From Planctomycetota bacterium (GTDB lineage Bacteria > Planctomycetota > Phycisphaerae > Phycisphaerales > SM1A02), in NCBI GenBank assembly GCA_003671075.1, contig QWPT01000011.1:1-55949 (forward strand): 55,949 nt of DNA, in the 5' to 3' direction. The notes below the pieces were generated by a model. It saw nothing but the letters and a program-made list of their open reading frames with translations, searched no databases and was not told the origin of the DNA. Made by a program: the position numbers and the translations under genes. Shown here in pieces: positions 24,302 to 33,306 of this stretch (position 1 is its first letter; every line of letters starts with the position of its first letter).

Positions 24302-25417
24302 ATGCTTCGCCTCCCCCCCGCGCCGACCACGCTTCGCGACGATCCATCCAATCGCCTCGGTCTTGATTTCACCGCCGAGGCCGCCCGCTTTCCTGCGCTC
24401 GGCTACGGCATCGTCGACATTCATTCGCACATCAACGGACTGAGCGCGAGCGCGATTTGGGCGCCCATCGCCAAGGCCTATGGCGTGGAGAAGACATTTT
24501 CCATGACGCGGCTAGAGGATCTACCCGCGCTTCGTGAACGCTTCGGCAACGCCATCGAGTTCATCGCCGTGCCCGATTGGTACGCGGCGGACAAGCGCGC
24601 TGGTCATGGCAGCGACTTCCTCGCGCGCATCGAGAAGTACCACGAATTGGGCACCAGAATCGTGAAGTTCTGGAACGCGCCTCGCTTCATCGATTTCGGG
24701 CTTGAGGCGGGCGACAAGGACTTGCTCGCGCTGGACGGCTCGATGCGCATCGAGCAGATGAAACTCGCAGAGCGTTTGGGCATGATCTGCATGACCCATG
24801 TTGCCGACCCGGATACTTGGTTTGCCGCGAAGTACACCGACCACGCGCGCTACGGTCGCAAACTCGACCACTACACGCCGCTTCGACGCGTGCTCGACCG
24901 ATTCGCCATGCCCTGGATCGCCGCGCACCTTGGTGGCTTCCCCGAAGATCTCGACTTCCTCGACCGCCTGCTCGAAGCGCATCCGAATTTGAACCTCGAC
25001 ACCAGCGCAACCAAGTGGATGGTGCGCGAACTGGGGCGACATTCGCGCGATGAGGTCGTGTCGTTTCTTGAGAAGTGGCGCGGGCGGATCATGTTCGGAA
25101 CCGACACCGTGACCACCGACGAACATCTGCACCAAGGTGACAAGCTTTCAGAGATGGGAAAAAAGGCCGCAAGCCGCGAAAGCGCGCACGATCTCTACGC
25201 GAGTCGCTACTGGGCGCTGCGCATGATGTGGGAGGGCTCGGGCGAAGTGGTGTCGCCGATCTCTGATCCCGATTTGGCGATGGTCGAACCCAACAAGTAC
25301 ACGCCGCACGATGCACCGATGCTTCGCGGGCTGGAGTTGCCGGCGGACTTGCTGCGCGTGCTTTACCGCGACGCGGCGCTGGCGCTGGTTGCCCGCGGCG
25401 CAACGGCAATCGCATGA
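24302..25417 (+). CDS. Amidohydrolase-family protein (Amidohydro_2)
   Basis: A 371-residue TIM-barrel amidohydrolase. The first metal motif appears as IVDIHSHING (HxH), further ligands as MTHVADPDTW and IAAHLGGFPED, and the last aspartate as IMFGTDTV. This order matches the Amidohydro_2 group, which includes decarboxylases and lactonases. The substrate cannot be read. A long insertion (AKYTDHARYGRKLDHYTPLR) lies between the second and third ligands. The last 55 bases overlap, on the opposite strand, the end of the glycosyltransferase-like gene. Confidence 0.8.
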   Translation: MLRLPPAPTTLRDDPSNRLGLDFTAEAARFPALGYGIVDIHSHINGLSASAIWAPIAKAYGVEKTFSMTRLEDLPALRERFGNAIEFIAVPDWYAADKRAGHGSDFLARIEKYHELGTRIVKFWNAPRFIDFGLEAGDKDLLALDGSMRIEQMKLAERLGMICMTHVADPDTWFAAKYTDHARYGRKLDHYTPLRRVLDRFAMPWIAAHLGGFPEDLDFLDRLLEAHPNLNLDTSATKWMVRELGRHSRDEVVSFLEKWRGRIMFGTDTVTTDEHLHQGDKLSEMGKKAASRESAHDLYASRYWALRMMWEGSGEVVSPISDPDLAMVEPNKYTPHDAPMLRGLELPADLLRVLYRDAALALVARGATAIA

Positions 25418-26352
25418 ATGGAGCGGGCGAGCACGGCGACATCGGCGCCAAACAGCGTGACCAGCGGATGAGATTGGTGCGCGCCGAGTTCGATAGATTC
25501 GTGCAGAACCACGGGCGTTCCGCAAGCCAGCGCCCACAACGCCGGAAGCGGTGACATGCGCTGGGGAACGACGGCTTCGGCGAACGACCGCATGCAACTG
25601 CGGCGACCTCGACAAGCAACGGGCGCGAATTCCGCGCCATCGTGATCCATCATCGCGAGGTCAAGCGCGGGCAGGATTTCCCACGGTCGTTCAGCGCGCT
25701 CGTCAACGATGAGGCCGCGCCCGCCCGACGCGCCCGCGACAAAGTCCTGGGCCTTGGCGATGCCGACAGCGTTGGGCGACACCACCATGCGCAGATTCGC
25801 CCCCCCGACCCGCGCCATCGCAACCGCGCGGCTGGCGAAGGAAAGATCGACCCAATCCGACGGCTCTCCGGTGACGAGCATCGCGGCTTCGTGACGCGCC
25901 AGGCCGAGCTCGCTTCGAACGCGCGCGATTTGAGTTTGCGGCCACTCGACCGACGCGGGCAACTCCAACGGCACCGTCGCGCGCGAGTACGGCGATGCAG
26001 CGTTGGGCTCAGCATTGTCGTTGCGACCAAACGCGTCGCAAATGCGCTGCGCGAGCGGGCCGTAGGTCAGTCGAAGTCGCGCGCCCGTGTCGCAAGCACC
26101 TTCAGATTCGAGCGCTTGACCAACGCGCGACCAACGCCACATGCCGCCGACACGATTGCAAGTTCGCACGCTGATCGTCGAGGCGAGGCCCATCGATTGA
26201 AGCCGCTGCGCGAAGGCTGTCGGACCGAGCACGAGGACCGCATCGCCTGCGCGTGCGCTGCGGACGATCTGTTCAAGCGTGCAATCCCCGGACTCTTCGA
26301 AGCAGAGGATGTGCAGTGTTTGGTGCAGGGTGCCCGCGGTGACCGCCATCAC
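25363..26352 (-). CDS. Possible divergent glycosyltransferase (GT-B-like)
   Basis: A 329-residue cytoplasmic protein without membrane segments. The C-terminal third contains MSPLPALWALACGTPVVLHE, which recalls the donor-binding P-x-x-x-x-E-A-x-A-x-G-x-P-V-V segment of GT-B glycosyltransferases, but the glutamates are missing. An internal stretch (ARHEAAMLVTGEPSDWVDL) looks like the start of the second Rossmann domain. Activity is therefore doubtful. It is the last gene of a four-gene operon with a DUF2752 protein and two lipoproteins, coupled by ATGA. Its last 55 bases overlap the convergent amidohydrolase gene. Confidence 0.5.
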   Translation of the reverse strand: MMAVTAGTLHQTLHILCFEESGDCTLEQIVRSARAGDAVLVLGPTAFAQRLQSMGLASTISVRTCNRVGGMWRWSRVGQALESEGACDTGARLRLTYGPLAQRICDAFGRNDNAEPNAASPYSRATVPLELPASVEWPQTQIARVRSELGLARHEAAMLVTGEPSDWVDLSFASRAVAMARVGGANLRMVVSPNAVGIAKAQDFVAGASGGRGLIVDERAERPWEILPALDLAMMDHDGAEFAPVACRGRRSCMRSFAEAVVPQRMSPLPALWALACGTPVVLHESIELGAHQSHPLVTLFGADVAVLARSIHAIAVAPRATSASAASR

Positions 26353-27062
26353 TGCTTCCGCGTGCCCAGGTTCTCGCCGAGGTCGATGCGATCGTGCTTG
26401 TAGAACAAGCGCCCGATGTCGATCGCGAGTTTCTTGGCCAGCTCTTCCTCGACTTGGGTTCGCCCAGCGCGGGTGCGCAGGATGTTGGGATCACTCTCGC
26501 GAATGGTCGCGCTCAACTCGCGGCCATCGGGCATGACATCGGAGGCCGGAAACATGCGCATCTTGGCGTCGATGTCGAGCACCTTTACAAACACGGTCGC
26601 CGTCGGCCGAAGTCCCTGCGCATCGCTGCGGCCGGCAAGGTCGAAGATGATCGGCTTGATGTAGATCACCTGACTGGCGTCGAGCGCATGCGCAACCGCT
26701 TCAACCGACATCAACTTGTTGGCGTTGCCGCCAGAACCCGCACGGGCGATGGCAATGGCGTCTCGAGTAGCGACGGTCGATGTCAGCAGTTCGCGACCCA
26801 TGAGGTCGAAGGAAACCGCGTCACCAATGGAGGTTCTCAGCGCGGTGCGCGGCAGAATGTTGCGCGGATCGTCAACGAATACAACAGTCTTCTTGTTGGG
26901 AAGCGTGTACTCGGCGTCGGTCTGGCCAGGCCCGTCCACGGCGTAGGTCAGCGGCGTGATGATGTTGCACGAGGCGAGCAGCGCGCCTAAACACACAGAC
27001 GCGGCCACCAGCGCAGCGCGCGCCACCAATGAGCGGTTGGATCGATCAAATCTCTGCTGCAT
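26349..27062 (-). CDS. Lipoprotein (second of a pair)
   Basis: A 237-residue protein with a signal peptide ending in the lipobox LLASC (about residue 32). The mature part has alternating strands and helices (KKTVVFVDDPRNILPRTALR, ALDASQVIYIKPIIF, PTATVFVKVLDIDAKMRMFP) and a charged end (EELAKKLAIDIGRLFYKHD). The layout resembles the preceding lipoprotein, which also ends in a helix with LFYRH, so the two may be ancient duplicates. The fold recalls LpoB/GNA1162-like outer-membrane lipoproteins, but this is only an impression. It follows the first lipoprotein gene by 28 bases. Confidence 0.72.
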   Translation of the reverse strand: MQQRFDRSNRSLVARAALVAASVCLGALLASCNIITPLTYAVDGPGQTDAEYTLPNKKTVVFVDDPRNILPRTALRTSIGDAVSFDLMGRELLTSTVATRDAIAIARAGSGGNANKLMSVEAVAHALDASQVIYIKPIIFDLAGRSDAQGLRPTATVFVKVLDIDAKMRMFPASDVMPDGRELSATIRESDPNILRTRAGRTQVEEELAKKLAIDIGRLFYKHDRIDLGENLGTRKQ

Positions 27063-27090
27063 CAGGCTGATACTCCCAAGACCAACGGCC

Positions 27091-27792
27091 TTAGTTCTTC
27101 GGATACTTATCTTCGATGTGTCGGTAGAAGAGCCAGGAAGTGCGCTGAATGAAGAGCGTCAGCAAACCGCGCTCGATGTCCTCGGCGCGCGCGGACTCCT
27201 TGCCGATGCCTTCCTTGTCGGGAAACTTCGTGACGATGTTGGTGGTGAAAACAAACTCGTCGGGCGCGAGGCCATCGGCTTCGATGACGCCAACATTTCC
27301 ACCGGAAACGCCGTCCCAGAGGTAACTGTTTCCCGTTGGATTGAGGCGGTATTCGTAGAGATCGATGTAGACCAGCCGCTCGACGCCGAGTTCCTTGGCG
27401 ACCTCGCCGTATGGAAGCGCGCGCCATTGCGGCGTGCGGTACTGCCAGTTGATCACGGTTGCCGGCGGCAGCACCGTTGCGTCCTTCACATACTGGCGGA
27501 TGCGCACGGCGACATTCGCGGACAAATTGCTGACGACGCTCGGGTGCTCGACGAGCGTGGCGTAGTCGGCGTTGACGATGACGGCGCAGGTCTTGCCTTC
27601 GAGCCCGTCGTAGGCCGCAGGAACATCGAGTTTCTTGCCGCGCTCAATCTGCTGACCAAGCGCGCCGACGGCGCCAGCGATGCAACCGCTGGTCGAAAGG
27701 GTTGCGCCGACGATGCCGAGGGCGAGCACGCAAGCAAGCACGCAAGCAAAAGTTTGGCGGGCGATGGTGTAGGTGCGGTGTTTCATGCTCAT
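27091..27792 (-). CDS. Lipoprotein (first of a pair)
   Basis: A 233-residue protein. The start ATG 27792 overlaps the DUF2752 stop codon (ATGA); the frame continues upstream but lies entirely over the neighbour. The signal peptide (MSMKHRTYTIARQTFACVLA...) ends at the lipobox TSGC. The mature part has an EGKTCAVIVNADYATLVEHP strand-turn, an ELGVERLVYIDLYEYRLNP segment and a final helix (LLTLFIQRTSWLFYRHIEDK). Function is unknown; it shares layout with the lipoprotein encoded next. CVLACVLAL in the signal region comes from a short repeat in the DNA. Confidence 0.75.
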   Translation of the reverse strand: MSMKHRTYTIARQTFACVLACVLALGIVGATLSTSGCIAGAVGALGQQIERGKKLDVPAAYDGLEGKTCAVIVNADYATLVEHPSVVSNLSANVAVRIRQYVKDATVLPPATVINWQYRTPQWRALPYGEVAKELGVERLVYIDLYEYRLNPTGNSYLWDGVSGGNVGVIEADGLAPDEFVFTTNIVTKFPDKEGIGKESARAEDIERGLLTLFIQRTSWLFYRHIEDKYPKN

Positions 27793-28304
27793 CCGATCCA
27801 ACCGCGCATGGCCGCGGTCTTGTAGCCCCAGGCGAGAAGCGTGGCTAGGCCCAAGAGCCATGCCGCGCGCGCATTCCAAAGACGCTCGTAGACTGGCCAG
27901 AAGGTCAGGCCGGTCACGATAGTCGCTGCGGATCCGACCAGCGCCATTCCTGTCGCTAGTGCGAGCAGGCAGCCCATGGGCTGCGCGATGAAACTGTCGA
28001 TCAGGTGTCCCTTCGCCGCAAACGCGAAGGATGTGGTCATTCCGCAGGATGGGCATGGTACTCCGAAGCGCGCTGGCCACGAACACGCAGGCAAGCCGAG
28101 AGCTTCATGTGTTCCGAAACCGCGTTGCGAAGGGGCGAGAACCCATGCGATGCTCAGGAGCCCCGCGCAGGCGAGGAACACGATCGAGGCGGACGCGCGG
28201 CGGCGACGGATGTCGGCGGCGTCAAACACCGCCGACCGCGAAGGGTCGTTTTTGGCGGCAAATGCTTCGCTGGCCTGCGGAGGATGCGCATTGGGCTGGT
28301 TCAC
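27789..28304 (-). CDS. DUF2752 membrane protein
   Basis: A 171-residue protein with two or three transmembrane helices and the DUF2752 signature GVPCPSCGMTTSF between the first and second. The family is common in Planctomycetota, Bacteroidota and Actinobacteria; its function is unknown, and the CPxCG motif suggests metal binding. Translation starts with GTG at 28304. TACGCT ends 8 bases before it, so this is the leaderless first gene of the four-gene operon. Confidence 0.88.
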   Translation of the reverse strand: MNQPNAHPPQASEAFAAKNDPSRSAVFDAADIRRRRASASIVFLACAGLLSIAWVLAPSQRGFGTHEALGLPACSWPARFGVPCPSCGMTTSFAFAAKGHLIDSFIAQPMGCLLALATGMALVGSAATIVTGLTFWPVYERLWNARAAWLLGLATLLAWGYKTAAMRGWIG

Positions 28305-28312
28305 GGGTGGAG

Positions 28313-28318
28313 AGCGTA
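28313..28318 (-). promoter_or_regulatory. -10 hexamer TACGCT before the DUF2752 gene
   Basis: On the minus strand TACGCT ends 8 bases before the GTG at 28304. The divergent M19 promoter lies 31 bases away. Confidence 0.5.
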
Positions 28319-28349
28319 GCCGCCGACCGCGGGGTGCGCGCGGCTCGCG

Positions 28350-28355
28350 TACCTT
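28350..28355 (+). promoter_or_regulatory. -10 hexamer TACCTT before the dipeptidase gene
   Basis: TACCTT ends 7 bases before the ATG at 28363, with no Shine-Dalgarno sequence. Confidence 0.5.
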
Positions 28356-28362
28356 CTCGCCT

Positions 28363-29382
28363 ATGAAGTTCCCCGCCGATACAGGCCCGTGTTGGGCCGA
28401 CGCGCATCTCGACCTCGCCTACCTCGCCGTCAACGGACGCGACATGCGTGCAAGCGTGCCCGCGGACGCAGCTCATGCATTGACGCTGCCCGCGCTGCGT
28501 GATGGCGGCGTGCGGGTTGCATTTGGCACGATATTCACCGAACTCGGCGGCGATCCTGCCACTGAGGCGGTTGGGTATCGCGATTCAGACGACCTCGAAG
28601 GCGCGCATCGGGCCGGGCTGCGCCAACTTGAGTGGTACGAAGAAATGGAGCGCGCCGGCGAGATCGCCATCGTGCGTTCAAAGGCCGACTACGCGCGCGC
28701 GCTCGCTGGCGAGAGCGCGCTTGGAATCGTCCTTCTCATGGAGTGCGCCGATCCGATCCGATCGCCCGACGAAGTCCAATGGTGGCACGAGCGCGGGCTG
28801 CGCGTGGTCGGGCTTTCCTGGGGGCACGGCAGCCGATACGCCGGCGGCAACGCGCGCGCCGGCGGGTTGACACCGATCGGACGGAGAATGGTCGAGGCGC
28901 TCGATGCGCAGCGCATCCTCCACGACGCGTCCCATCTTTCGCGCGCGGCATTCGACGACCTCTTTGCGCTTTCGCCGCGCATGGTGATCGCGTCACATTC
29001 CAATGCTGCGGCGCTGATCGGCGACAACGAGCGCCATTTGACCGATGGGCAAATCGCTGCATTGCGCGATCGCGATGGATGGATCGGCCTCAACCTCTAT
29101 GGTCGCTTTCTTGCCAACCAACGGCGAGCGACGCTCGATGATTGCGTGGCGCAAGTGATGCATGTGGCTGAAATCGTGGGTTTCGCGCGGGTCGGACTGG
29201 GCAGCGATCTCGACGGCGGGTTCGATCGGATGCAGCTACCGATTGAAATCCAGTCGCCCAGCGACTACGAATTGTTGCTGTCGGGGTTGGAGCGAGCGGG
29301 CTTTTTGCAAGCGGGCGGAACGCGCGACGGCTACGCCCACGCGAACCTATCGCGGGTATTGCGTGCGAGCGGATGCCTGTAA
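28363..29382 (+). CDS. M19-family dipeptidase (membrane dipeptidase type)
   Basis: A 339-residue zinc dipeptidase. Ligands appear in order: WADAHLDLAYL (HxD), LLMECADPI (bridging Glu), then SHSNAAAL and a final segment VGLGSDLDGGFD. A WGHGSRYAGGN stretch follows the second ligand, as in renal dipeptidase relatives. These enzymes cleave dipeptides, including D-residue and dehydro substrates, on TIM barrels. No signal peptide is seen, so it is probably cytoplasmic. ATG 28363 is fixed by the hexamer and the family N-terminus. It converges with the MinD-like gene, one base apart. Confidence 0.9.
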   Translation: MKFPADTGPCWADAHLDLAYLAVNGRDMRASVPADAAHALTLPALRDGGVRVAFGTIFTELGGDPATEAVGYRDSDDLEGAHRAGLRQLEWYEEMERAGEIAIVRSKADYARALAGESALGIVLLMECADPIRSPDEVQWWHERGLRVVGLSWGHGSRYAGGNARAGGLTPIGRRMVEALDAQRILHDASHLSRAAFDDLFALSPRMVIASHSNAAALIGDNERHLTDGQIAALRDRDGWIGLNLYGRFLANQRRATLDDCVAQVMHVAEIVGFARVGLGSDLDGGFDRMQLPIEIQSPSDYELLLSGLERAGFLQAGGTRDGYAHANLSRVLRASGCL

Positions 29383-29383
29383 A

Positions 29384-30787
29384 TCAAGCCGAAATCGTCT
29401 GCACGTCGTAGCAGCGCCGACCAGAAAATTCGAGCTGACGAAGGACGCGCACAGTGGCGCCATCGATCGGTTCGAACTCACGGACTTCCTGCACGAAGAT
29501 GTCGATCGACGGATCATCGACCGAGGCAATCTCGGGATACGCCTTGCGAAACAGCCCAGAATTCTCGCTCATCCATGCGCGAGCACGCGCGAGCATGCGC
29601 AGATCATCGACGCGGCAGACAAGGTGCAGCTGACCGTTGGCCTCGACGGCGAACTCAATGCGCTCGCAACGCGGGGCAAAATGGTCGATGCGGGAAAGCC
29701 CCGCGACGAATGGCACCAACGACTCGGGCAGTCCGCCCTCGACGATGCGCGCGATGGGCGGCGCCGCCGATGGACCGTTGACGGCTGATGCGACGTAGGG
29801 AGTGCGCGGGGATGCGTTGGTGGACGCATGAGCAGCCGCGCTCACTTCGCGCAGCGTGCTTGACGCGTCGGCGAGAATTTCACGCGCTGCATTTTGCGTC
29901 GGCGCAATCGATGGCGGAGTGCGAACGGGTTCCAAGCCGCGGCCACCGCGTGGTGGGAGATCGGATCGGAATGGAATCGAGTCAGCCGCTGGCCGCGCGC
30001 CCGGGCCCTTGCGTTCGACGCGAGGTGTGAAGCGCAACGGCTCGGACGCGGTCGAGGCTGAGGACGCGGAGTAGGACGCCGAAGCCGACACCGCTGAAGC
30101 GACCGACGCCGAAACCAAGGCACGGCGCGGCGCGTGAGCGGCGGCCGTCGCGATGACTTCACAAATATGGGCGAGGCACGGAGCGGAACCCTCGAAGGTT
30201 CCACGGAATGAACTCTCCGCAGGTGCAACGCGCTGCAGTCCGCCGCGCACCGGGATGCTGATCGAGAGCGACGAACTTGCTGCTTCGCCGATGCGCGCCG
30301 CCACATGGGCGGTTTCCGCCGCGTCGGCGCCAAGGACAGCCACCGACACCGCTGGTCGCGCGCCGCCGAGCCGCTCGATGGCGTCGTGCGCAGCCTTGAC
30401 CAGACGATACGCCGCAACGATGGCCGCTTGATCGGAGCCAGTCAGCACGACGATGTCATCGGTTCCGTGGGAAATCTCTACCGGTTCGCTCTGCCGCGCA
30501 ACCACCAACCACTGCGAGACGATCGGCGCGACGGCGCGCAAAGCTTCTTCGTAGGTCGCTTGCGGACGAATCGTCGGCAGGCGGCTTCCCGCACGAAATA
30601 GCTCGATCTGCACGCAATCGCCTGATTCGCGCACCAGGCACACGGGGCCGTTCTCGCGCGCCTCGCGGTCGGCATATTGCGAAATCCACAGCGCGCTCAT
30701 CACAGGAAGATTGCCGACAAGCAGCAAGGTTCGGCGAGGCGTGAGCCATCCTCCCGGAAGCCCGTCAAACGGAGAGGCAGCCGTCAT
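29384..30787 (-). CDS. MinD/FleN-like protein lacking a P-loop, paired with ParA
   Basis: A 467-residue protein coupled by ATGA to the ParA fusion gene. I recognise weak MinD/FleN features: RTLLLVGNLPVMSALWISQ in place of a Walker A region, IVVLTGSDQAAIVAAYRLVK like the conserved TPEPTAxxDAYxLIK segment, and VSVAVLGADAAETAHVAARI like the V-V-N-x-A helix. No Walker A lysine is present. A Ser/Ala/Pro-rich linker (about 215-335) leads to a C-terminal domain (about 345-467) with mixed strands (RCERIEFAVEANGQLHLVCR). It is probably a non-hydrolysing partner of the ParA protein. The relation to MinD is inference. Confidence 0.5.
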   Translation of the reverse strand: MTAASPFDGLPGGWLTPRRTLLLVGNLPVMSALWISQYADREARENGPVCLVRESGDCVQIELFRAGSRLPTIRPQATYEEALRAVAPIVSQWLVVARQSEPVEISHGTDDIVVLTGSDQAAIVAAYRLVKAAHDAIERLGGARPAVSVAVLGADAAETAHVAARIGEAASSSLSISIPVRGGLQRVAPAESSFRGTFEGSAPCLAHICEVIATAAAHAPRRALVSASVASAVSASASYSASSASTASEPLRFTPRVERKGPGARPAADSIPFRSDLPPRGGRGLEPVRTPPSIAPTQNAAREILADASSTLREVSAAAHASTNASPRTPYVASAVNGPSAAPPIARIVEGGLPESLVPFVAGLSRIDHFAPRCERIEFAVEANGQLHLVCRVDDLRMLARARAWMSENSGLFRKAYPEIASVDDPSIDIFVQEVREFEPIDGATVRVLRQLEFSGRRCYDVQTISA

Positions 30788-32112
30788 GGAAGTCGATCCT
30801 CAGAGGCGGAAAATTCGGTGCTTTCGCTGCAAGCGCCGGGAACGACGACGACATTGACGCCGAGGTTCTCATCGCGCAGGTTGTTGTATTCGTCGAGCGT
30901 TTCCTTGCCGTCGACCACGATGCGATACGCGTGGGTTCCCGGGGCAAGCACGACGGTCGCCTCGAGGCGTCGACGATCCGCGCTCTCGATGAATTGGGTC
31001 GTCGCAGGATTCCAGTCGTTGAAGTCACCCACCACCGAACTCGCGCGACGCGAGAAAGGCAGCGAAAACACGACGGTTCCGCATAGTTGCGCACGCGGGC
31101 CGAAGCCGCCGCCGACGATATTGGCTTGACGGGTTCGCTCATTCATCGCCCGCAGTCGGGTGACGACATCGGCTGCACGGCCGCCCTCGGGCTCGCGCTG
31201 CACTTGCGGCGCGTCGAGAGGTTGAAGCGTTGATGCCGCGATCGGCGCAACTGCGTCGACTGACGCGCTTGGACCAGCAATAAATGTTTCGATCGAAGGC
31301 ACGCCGTCGCTGGCAAAATCATCGAGAACACGCGTGGATGGCGCGTGTTCACGCAGCCAGTTGGCAAGCGCATCGAAGTCGGACTCCGCGGCGGAACCGG
31401 GGGCAAACTCGGTGATCGACTGCCCGAAGCTGGCCGCGTCACGCAGTTCCTCGTGCTCGTGGATGACCATCGGCAGCAGCGCCTCTGGGCAGCGACGAGC
31501 AAGCGCCTCGACGACATCGCGCGAAAGCGCACGCCGCTCGTTGACCAAAGTTGGCAGCAGCCGGAACGGGATGTCGCGACCGAATCGGCCGACGACCGCC
31601 TCGATGGTTTGGATCTGCTTCTCAGCGCCCTTGAGGCTGAAATAGCCAGTTTCGACGGGGATAATCACCAAGTCCGCCGCGCGAAGAGCGTTGAAGGTGA
31701 GCAAGCCGATGGTGGGCGGGCAGTCGATCACGCACCAATCAAAGCGATCCTTCCACGCGGCCAGCACGCGGGCGAGGCGGCGATCGCGGTCGAAGCGCGC
31801 GGTAAGCGGGCCGTTCGGCGCCTCGAGCAGCGACAGGGTCACGCTCGATGGCGCGAGGTGCAGATTGCGCCCCACTTCCCACACAAACTCATCGACGGAC
31901 AGCGCGGCGGGATTCTCCGCCAGCATCGCATCGCCAATGGTGCGCTCGATGCGCTGATCGGGAACGCCGAGGCCCGCAGCGCAATGCGACTGCGGATCCA
32001 TATCGACGAGCAGCGAACGCACGCCATCGCGCGCCATCACTGCAGCGAGATTGATTGCGGTGGTGGTCTTGCCACAGCCGCCCTTCTGATTGACGATGGC
32101 AACAACGCGCAT
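30784..32112 (-). CDS. ParA-type ATPase fused to a glycogen-binding (CBM48/AMPK1-type) domain
   Basis: A 442-residue protein. Residues 1-260 are a ParA/Soj ATPase: deviant Walker A QKGGCGKTTTAINLA, DMDPQSHCAAGLG and CVIDCPPTIGLLTFNAL. A linker of about 75 residues follows. The last 100 residues form an E-set/CBM48-like domain: VVFSLPFSRRASSVVGDFND with W next, then VVLAPGTHAYRIVVDGK, the usual GDFNxW and Y-x-F/Y-x-VDG motifs of AMPK beta and isoamylase N-terminal domains. ParA proteins position cargo on the nucleoid; the extra domain suggests a glucan or related ligand. ParB and parS are not seen nearby. GATAAC, 7 bases before the ATG, may be a -10. Confidence 0.85.
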   Translation of the reverse strand: MRVVAIVNQKGGCGKTTTAINLAAVMARDGVRSLLVDMDPQSHCAAGLGVPDQRIERTIGDAMLAENPAALSVDEFVWEVGRNLHLAPSSVTLSLLEAPNGPLTARFDRDRRLARVLAAWKDRFDWCVIDCPPTIGLLTFNALRAADLVIIPVETGYFSLKGAEKQIQTIEAVVGRFGRDIPFRLLPTLVNERRALSRDVVEALARRCPEALLPMVIHEHEELRDAASFGQSITEFAPGSAAESDFDALANWLREHAPSTRVLDDFASDGVPSIETFIAGPSASVDAVAPIAASTLQPLDAPQVQREPEGGRAADVVTRLRAMNERTRQANIVGGGFGPRAQLCGTVVFSLPFSRRASSVVGDFNDWNPATTQFIESADRRRLEATVVLAPGTHAYRIVVDGKETLDEYNNLRDENLGVNVVVVPGACSESTEFSASEDRLP

Positions 32113-32169: not shown

Positions 32170-33306
32170 TCACTCACCGCGGGCGGCGATGGCGGTGAGC
32201 GCGGCGTGCAAACTTTCAGGATGTTCGTCTTGCTCGATCGTGACATCGCCGATCGCGCGCGGAAGAACCAGCCGCAACTTTCCCCCTTGATTCTTCTTGT
32301 CAAAGCCCATGCGATGCTCGATATCGGCGACAGCGACCGGCGTGGGCAACCGAATTGGGAGACCGCAACGCTCGATCAGGCGCACGATCCGGTCGGCGGT
32401 TGCGCTCGGCAGAATCCCGCGCGAGACCGCGCAGGTGCAGGCGGCGTGCAGTCCGATGGCGACGGCCTCGCCGTGCAGTAAATCGAGGCCGCGCACGGTT
32501 TCGATCGCGTGACCGAAAGTGTGGCCGAGGTTGAGTTTGGCGCGTTCACTGCGCTCAAAGGGATCGCGCGTGACGATCTCGGCCTTGACGGCGGCCGAGG
32601 AGGGAATGAGGCGGTCGATGGCGGATGGGTCGCCTAGGGCAAGCAGCTCGGCATCGGCGTTGAGGTTGGAAAACAGCGGTTCGCCCACAATAATCGCGTG
32701 TTTGATGCACTCAGCGAGCCCGGCGCGCAGTTGGCGCGCCGGAAGGGTTTCCAGCAGATCGGCGTCGGCGATGGTGAGCCGAGGCTGCCAAAACGCACCC
32801 GCAAGATTCTTGCCCAGACCGCCGCCCGGCAACGCCAGATTGATGCCGGTCTTCCCGCCAATCGACGAGTCGACCATCGCCAACAGCGTGGTTGGAACCT
32901 GCACGAGGTCAACGCCGCGCAGGAAGGTTGCGGCGGCAAAGCCCGCGAGGTCGCCGAGAAGTCCGCCGCCGACGGCGATGAAGAGCCCGCCGCGATCGAT
33001 GCGCGCCGAAAGCGCGGCGTGCCAGATGTCGTCGACGGCGCGCATCGACTTCTGCGCCTCGGTCGCGTCGAGGTGGATGACGGCGACATGCGCGTGCGCG
33101 CCCGCGAGCGAAGTCGCAATGCGCCCCGCGACGGCAGAAACATTGCGGTCGATGACCAACAGCACGCGACGGTCGGCGACGGGAATTCCCGCATCGGCAA
33201 GGGTCTGGGCGATCCGCGCCGCGCCACCACGCTCGACGACGAGGCTGGTGGGAGTGGCGCCGATGTCGATGGGAATACGAATGGGCTTGCTCGAGGATTC
33301 GCTCAT
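32170..33306 (-). CDS. aroB: 3-dehydroquinate synthase
   Basis: AroB makes 3-dehydroquinate from DAHP in the shikimate pathway. The 378-residue protein has the NAD-binding AVGGGLLGDLAGFAAATFLRG segment, QVPTTLLAMVDSSIGGKTGIN, the metal ligands in AECIKHAII and LNLGHTFGHAIE, and HGEAVAIGLHAA. It overlaps the upstream 77-residue membrane protein gene by four bases (ATGA), so it is translated from that gene's leaderless message. Confidence 0.95.
   Translation of the reverse strand: MSESSSKPIRIPIDIGATPTSLVVERGGAARIAQTLADAGIPVADRRVLLVIDRNVSAVAGRIATSLAGAHAHVAVIHLDATEAQKSMRAVDDIWHAALSARIDRGGLFIAVGGGLLGDLAGFAAATFLRGVDLVQVPTTLLAMVDSSIGGKTGINLALPGGGLGKNLAGAFWQPRLTIADADLLETLPARQLRAGLAECIKHAIIVGEPLFSNLNADAELLALGDPSAIDRLIPSSAAVKAEIVTRDPFERSERAKLNLGHTFGHAIETVRGLDLLHGEAVAIGLHAACTCAVSRGILPSATADRIVRLIERCGLPIRLPTPVAVADIEHRMGFDKKNQGGKLRLVLPRAIGDVTIEQDEHPESLHAALTAIAARGE

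Follow-up and report, generated by a model that had tools for sequence, protein, structure and literature searches.

ATPases of the ParA/MinD type rely on separate, very diverse partner proteins to place chromosomes, plasmids, flagella, chemoreceptors and carboxysomes. In the accessible sections of a paper on multiple ParA/MinD ATPases (PMC10241942), these partners are characterized as extremely diverse, and glycogen goes unmentioned there. Here we describe a gene encoding a ParA ATPase fused to a domain of the carbohydrate-binding module (CBM) family CBM48, located on a stretch of 55,949 nucleotides (hereafter, the window: positions 1 to 55,949 of the forward strand of contig QWPT01000011.1, assembly GCA_003671075.1) from a planctomycete of the order Phycisphaerales, class Phycisphaerae. 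Several described systems resemble parts of this locus. Soj/ParA of the chromosomal ParABS systems is the best PDB and Foldseek match of the ParA domain of the fusion and shares with it the deviant Walker A motif and the ATPase residues; the fusion differs in carrying a CBM48 arm, in being accompanied by a pseudo-ATPase and in that parB is usually unlinked. The CBM of the AMPK beta subunit (CBM48, PF16561) shares its domain, by profile, and its glucan-binding tryptophans with most relatives of the fusion, whereas the host protein here is a ParA ATPase and the window copy lacks the second tryptophan. A functional analogy is offered by the plant protein PTST, a non-enzymatic protein that, according to the parts consulted of its description (PMC4339375), uses its CBM48 to recruit another activity to the glucan granule; PTST is a chloroplast protein with a coiled coil in place of ParA, so that the likeness is one of analogy only. 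In McdA/McdB, which positions carboxysomes, and in other ParA/MinD cargo systems, a ParA-type ATPase likewise has a partner gene of its own that does not encode ParB; this locus departs from them in joining a ligand-type domain to the ATPase and in having a pseudo-ATPase as the partner. Moreover, the Walker A motif of McdA, given as SGGQGKT in the portion of the source available (PMC9178275), lacks the signature lysine that the fusion retains (K10) in all orthologues.

The fusion gene (30784..32112, reverse strand, stop codon included) starts with ATG, contains no internal stops and encodes a protein of 442 amino acids (P0001) in which Pfam detects AAA_31, CbiA and AMPK1_CBM. The ParA domain (approximately residues 1-255; 31348..32112, reverse strand) matches AAA_31 over residues 1-176 (E 6.8e-43) and contains the deviant Walker A motif KGGCGKTT, which conforms to the ParA/MinD pattern KGGxxK[T/S] with its signature lysine. 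It was largely confidently modeled by AlphaFold2, and a Foldseek search with the whole model placed Soj/ParA at ranks 1-5 (E 7.8e-22 to 3e-20; TM-score to target 0.86-0.89), the top 50 being exclusively ParA/MinD-type chains. The linker that follows (approximately residues 256-336; 31105..31347, reverse strand) is predicted to be largely disordered, with a predicted local distance difference test score (pLDDT) below 50 at residues 279-313 and 326-335 and one predicted helix (313-329) surrounding a conserved SRAAELVxRAR-type segment in alignment A1, which comprises 24 of 30 loci (five without the CBM and one near-duplicate were left out).

The C-terminal AMPK-beta/CBM48-type domain (approximately residues 337-426; 30835..31104, reverse strand) matches Pfam AMPK1_CBM over residues 359-420 with E 4.4e-6 and a margin of 0.4 bit over the gathering score (27.2 against 26.8 bits). 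The segment of the window copy alone yields weak AMPK-beta-type matches among PDB chains (yeast SIP2, E 0.16; AMPK beta, E 0.6-1.7). The family profile matches ParA/Soj chains (best E 2.9e-70) and also the AMPK-beta CBM (E 2.8e-13), and among the members of alignment A2, which consists of P0001 and 36 of 79 full-length loci, AMPK1_CBM was detected in 37 of 37 and CBM_48 in 35 of 37 (E 1e-3). AlphaFold2 predicts a confident all-beta domain, with block pLDDT values of 80-92 over residues 341-420 and strands between residues 338 and 424. Because matches to the ParA or MinD domain fill most of the Foldseek and VIA-align lists, the putative E-set fold of the CBM is assigned from the sequence profile and the predicted strands. 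The preliminary description of the window, which reported a ParA joined to a CBM48-type domain in a single open reading frame (ORF) on the basis of the motifs GDFNDW and YRIVVDGK (these start at residues 362 and 396), thus agrees with the Pfam, profile and structure-prediction results. The reservation attached to it, that a frameshift might make the two parts separate genes, is removed by the recurrence of the same fusion in 104 of 110 orthologues, which also excludes an assembly join.

Searching 198 genomes of the Phycisphaerae with the A2 profile (E 1e-85) revealed one match per genome in 124 of them, and in 99 of these the alignment is continuous through the CBM; this architecture, for which a survey across Planctomycetota had been suggested, recurs across much of the class. 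The remaining 25 genomes are heterogeneous. In some, the CBM aligns as a separate stretch (the matches in G028, G075 and G008 reach 414-416 of 442 residues, and G125, locus L018, has the CBM); in G155, G177, G197, G185 and G102 (loci L010, L015, L024, L025 and L035), the CBM is absent; and six matches, from family f15, score at approximately 299-318 bits and may not be members. The first search, with P0001, gave matches in 166 of the 198 genomes at E 1e-30, a count that includes ordinary ParA. In a scan of named genomes, the best 80 of 571 relatives include 79 whose match extends to residue 429-433 of the 433-residue query, the other (L077) being cut by a contig end; since these are the best 80 of 571, that scan leaves room for fusions beyond the class. 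The record titles of these 80 are Phycisphaerae, Phycisphaerales, Sedimentisphaerales, Planctomycetota and similar, with a single Actinomycetes (L103). This last is a contig of a metagenome-assembled genome that carries the fusion and a short match to the partner described below, and it groups with Phycisphaerae in the ParA-domain tree (48 of 110 sequences); it is probably a mislabelled or mixed bin. In a phylum-wide sample of 294 genomes, 21 genomes of the class scored 349-651 bits, and among the matches listed outside the class none exceeded 270 bits or reached the CBM columns, these being ordinary ParA scores. Given the single match per genome and the confinement of high scores to the class among the matches listed, the fusion appears to be an ancient trait of the Phycisphaerae that is present in single copy, within the limits of these samples. 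Plasmid matches to the CBM came from eight Streptomyces records, none covering 80% of the query and with their genes not checked for a ParA domain; the five rows listed are annotated as "isoamylase early set domain" proteins.

The orthologue set, 110 sequences from 30 unnamed and 80 named loci, does not amount to 110 independent species because some records occur in both parts (for example, L016 and L064). Within this set, the ATPase residues K10, K15, D37, D39 and Q41 are identical in 110 of 110 sequences, and the Walker A motif is KGGCGKTT in 104, with KGGSGKTT or KGGVGKTT in the other six. In the 104 sequences that retain the CBM, the positions equivalent to AMPK W100 and W133 are occupied by tryptophan in 103 and 100, respectively, and an arginine (104 of 104) occupies the place of an AMPK lysine that is visible in the alignment with AMPK-beta chains and that we take to be K126; Asp407 is likewise present in all 104. 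The counterparts of W100 and W133 are required for glucan binding in PTST, according to the sections seen of that study (PMC4339375). Over a subsample of pairs, the ParA domain has a mean pairwise identity of 0.59, compared with 0.50 in the CBM and 0.22 in the linker. As judged from these alignments, the ATPase and an ancestral glucan-binding site are supported and, because its identity is close to that of ParA and far above that of the linker, the CBM is under selection, the linker much less so. The "glycan-binding arm" of the preliminary description is accordingly well founded for the family; for the window protein, with a glutamate at the second tryptophan, the case is weaker.

Among the papers listed in full-text searches, none describes a ParA joined to CBM48 or AMPK1_CBM, so that the initial impression of an architecture without a described family holds for the literature searched; the consulted part of a survey of Phycisphaerae genomes (PMC11266412) contains no mention of CBM48. 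The fusion is a genuine architecture of ParA that is found in a large part of a class, has not been described in the literature searched and is often accompanied by a pseudo-ATPase partner.

The partner gene (29384..30787, reverse strand) lies directly downstream of the fusion gene and overlaps it by 4 bp (ATGA), its start being inside the stop codon of the fusion. It encodes a protein of 467 amino acids (P0002) that consists, according to the model, of an N-terminal FlhG/MinD-like fold without a P-loop, a disordered middle and a C-terminal alpha/beta domain. Homologues are found directly downstream and on the same strand in all 19 loci with wide neighborhoods (the window included), two of which (L055 and L056, from G155 and G185) have a ParA without the CBM, and directly downstream in 37 of the 80 named loci, several Sedimentisphaerales loci among them (L080, L083, L090, L127 and L135). 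A Pfam search of the partner produced no meaningful family match, and its C-terminal domain has no Pfam match. FlhG and FleN are the closest proteins in both profile (FlhG 4rz2, E 8.3e-14; FleN, E 1.7e-8) and fold: the N-terminal model aligns with FlhG 4rz3 over 161 residues (VIA-align Z 11.6; root-mean-square deviation 3.7; Foldseek E 8e-6). In contrast to these proteins, the partner lacks the Walker A P-loop and has the extra C-terminal domain. The 28 rows of alignment A3 (P0002 and 27 of 34 long partners; three further partners of fewer than 380 amino acids were left out) show no P-loop at the strand-1 loop, where one would be expected, and the pattern G-x(0-4)-GK[ST] occurs in 3 of 56 partners, elsewhere, at residues 42, 48 and 514. 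The profile of the partner matched that of the fusion weakly (hhalign probability 4%), so the FlhG assignment derives from the PDB profiles and folds. A P-loop protein of the MinD/FlhG type (L003) and an Mrp-type protein are encoded separately in the genome from which the window comes.

Near the N-terminus, partners carry a short motif, L-x-x-LA-x-LFL-[ST], that may be a binding peptide. A simple pattern matches 44 of 56 sequences, a count in which four matches fall elsewhere (the window, L040, L053 and L054) and from which several sequences showing the motif by eye are missing; the window partner has a divergent form. We tentatively propose that the partner regulates the ATPase of the fusion.

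Taken together, these features lead us to favor, tentatively, the possibility that the family consists of ParA ATPases in which the CBM, on its tether, binds alpha-glucan and thereby positions or senses it; the pseudo-ATPase would be the regulator and the window copy a derived form. Under this scheme, the ParA half, with its intact deviant Walker A motif and switch residues, would dimerize on ATP, and the CBM, on a flexible tether of approximately 80 residues and with its stacking residues conserved, would in most of the relatives found bind an alpha-glucan such as glycogen. ATP-driven attachment to the nucleoid or to itself could then spread, hold or segregate glucan particles; alternatively, the ATPase might be coupled to the glucan store. 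The adjacent pseudo-ATPase, where present, would act as a regulator or adaptor of ParA. A more specific version, in which a class-wide machine of ParA-CBM and pseudo-ParA positions or partitions glycogen, or ties the nucleoid to it, would make this the first ParA with a carbohydrate cargo; the family of the window would have given up part of its glucan and DNA contacts and been repurposed. We regard this version as doubtful.

A number of observations weigh against the glucan-positioning scheme. For 43 of the 80 named fusions, a mixed set from other lineages in which some loci end at contig ends, no adjacent partner was found, and accordingly the partner is not obligatory. In the recurrent gene clusters beside the fusion, judged by eye and without a family search, no glycogen gene was recognized. 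Many genomes with an intact CBM lack matches to classical GlgA or GlgB; across the class, GlgA (PF08323) was detected in 58 of 198 genomes and GlgB (TIGR01515) in 90, of which 21 were above the cut-off. In favor of the scheme, alpha-glucan metabolism as such is common among 55 chosen genomes of the class, of which 50 encode GH57 and 42 have a phosphorylase-family match. The apparent co-occurrence of the CBM with phosphorylase does not survive correction for kinship. For CBM integrity set against phosphorylase, the counts are 16 of 21 versus 3 of 9 (Fisher p 0.04, kinship ignored). Phosphorylase is missing in 8 of 11 genomes of the family to which the window belongs versus 5 of 44 elsewhere, a pattern that at first resembled joint loss with the CBM; on the tree, the association reduces to 2-3 independent pairs (median sign-test p 1) and, being phylogenetically confounded, provides no independent support. 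Nor does glycogen metabolism need the fusion: in family f17, GH57 is lacking from three genomes that the fusion profile does not match, but two of these have phosphorylase, GlgA-type and sub-cut-off GlgB matches. We consider the co-occurrence evidence neutral; that the fusion positions glycogen is something we infer.

The window copy itself and its family (ten orthologues) present the other difficulty. In the window CBM, the first tryptophan is present (W367) and the second is replaced by glutamate (E404), as it is in a genus mate (L008). Two further members of the family (L009 and L020) have proline in place of the second tryptophan, L009 lacking the first as well; L010, L015, L024 and L035, and likewise L025 of the neighboring family, have no CBM; and L017 and L018 keep both tryptophans. 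On the ParA-domain tree, at least three changes between intact and non-intact CBM are needed. The ParA domains of L009, L015, L020 and L024, all with the CBM lost or degenerate, occupy unusually long branches, as if constraint had been relaxed or changed.

Basic residues of the ParA domain follow a similar course. In the solved Soj and ParA chains, the stretch corresponding to residues 218-223 (fusion numbering) reads PRNVRL, and the basic residues of Soj in this region presumably contact DNA. The structures 1wcv and 8ray have arginine at 219 and 222, most relatives of the fusion have Phe/Lys, and the window copy has Glu/Glu; position 219 is glutamate in 9 of 10 members of the family. K222 is kept in 0 of 10 versus 92 of 100 outside the family, the window copy having E222 instead of this widely kept lysine; R193 survives in the window copy alone of the 10, versus 92 of 100, and R198 in the window copy and two others of the 10, versus 96 of 100. 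Because these three residues are mostly lost, canonical nucleoid binding is doubtful in this family, to judge from the alignment. As a member of the family, the window copy is partly degenerate or repurposed, and its glucan binding, if there is any, is probably weak. In the simplest reading, the family keeps the ATPase residues and the adjacent partner while the surface contacts and the glucan site appear to be altered, through loss of the second tryptophan or of the whole CBM and of the basic ParA residues, with the window copy part-way along. In the preliminary description, the architecture had been correctly recognized; the pseudo-ATPase partner, the missing second tryptophan and the losses within the family had not been picked up.

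Several of these observations fit other explanations as well. The protein could be a glucan sensor rather than a positioner, in the manner of the AMPK beta CBM, through which a kinase is coupled to glycogen. Binding of sugar or glycogen by the CBM would then switch the ATPase or the partner, so that division, growth or another process would respond to carbon status. The conserved binding residues are compatible with such a role, a pseudo-ATPase is a typical regulator, and a sensor would predict the lack of a glycogen operon nearby; however, the long disordered linker fits tethering better than tight allosteric coupling, and we consider a pure sensor rather unlikely.

It is also unlikely, on balance, that the CBM serves, at least in the family of the window, as an E-set protein-protein interface that docks the partner or another cargo protein. 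Such a role would accommodate the window copy and the three relatives without the second tryptophan, as well as the four members without the domain, but not the retention elsewhere of both tryptophans in at least 100 of 104 sequences. Furthermore, the partner gene still adjoins the CBM-less ParA of G155 and G185, so that the CBM is not what holds the partner.

A role at the envelope or in exopolysaccharide export, resembling that of BcsQ, a ParA-like protein of cellulose export, is improbable; in it the CBM would hold nascent or imported glucan. Pfam CBP_BcsQ does match all 37 members of A2 (E <=1e-3), with the window copy above its cut-off, but this model seems to match ParA proteins generally. 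The NCBIfam equivalog TIGR03371 is missed (102.2 versus 157.85 bits), the Walker A motif KGGCGKTT of the fusion differs from the RGGVGTT given for BcsQ in the available part of its source (PMC9178275), and no cellulose gene was recognized near the fusion. We therefore rejected a BcsQ-type cellulose protein on account of the missed cut-off and the neighborhood.

Least probable among the specific alternatives is a second chromosome- or plasmid-partition ParA with the CBM as an accessory, despite the closeness of its ParA domain to Soj/ParA. The genome from which the window comes (G000) encodes ParB on a different contig (C1) from that of the fusion (C13) and has a second ParA, with the motif KGGVGKTT and without the CBM (L001/L037). 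Across 34 genomes of the order searched for ParB, it was found in 32, and within 10 kb of the fusion solely in G078, where a ParB match on the opposite strand is approximately 4 kb away from it (L142, contig C27); at least two ParA-type matches (E 1e-30) were detected in 28 of the 34. The fusion therefore lacks the linked parB of chromosomal ParABS systems, and the commonness of a second ParA in the order, together with the location of ParB on another contig, argues against plain chromosome partition, which we rejected as the principal explanation, with G078 as the exception. The CBM-free ParA of the window's genome (L037, 4436-5830 on contig C31) has a long alanine-rich C-terminal tail, and no ParB was recognized beside it. 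Origin from a virus was rejected as none of 44 viral loci matches the fusion beyond residue 314, a defense system because the weak PADLOC match over the Walker region (E 6.7e-4) stands alone, and an artefact of assembly or frameshift by the orthologues noted above.

Upstream of the fusion, separated from it by 57 bp, lies aroB (3-dehydroquinate synthase; 32170..33306, reverse strand; Pfam DHQ_synthase, E 2.1e-39), which is found within approximately 3.3 kb upstream of the fusion in 10 of the 19 loci with wide neighborhoods; other lineages have different genes there, and aroB is probably a neighbor rather than a part of the fusion system. On the far side of the partner, a gene for an M19 dipeptidase (28255-29382) and ORFs spanning 25363-28086 form a neighborhood common to L039, L044, L046, L054 and L055; the reverse-strand ORFs 25363-27062 and 27091-28086 have no Pfam match, and two of them are lipoprotein-like by eye. 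In Poriferisphaera heterotrophicis ZRK32 (L057), the fusion is intact with no partner downstream, where several prepilin-like ORFs lie on the opposite strand.

A fusion thus occurs in a cultured organism, ZRK32, which divides by asymmetric budding, as stated in the sections consulted of its description (PMC10945688). Because the ATPase carries a recognizable ligand-binding module that has been conserved in a large part of the class, the cargo or signal of this ParA can be guessed, and the guess can be tested. Should the module bind glycogen, the location or inheritance of the sugar store may be under active bacterial control, a subject on which none was found among the papers listed in the literature searches.

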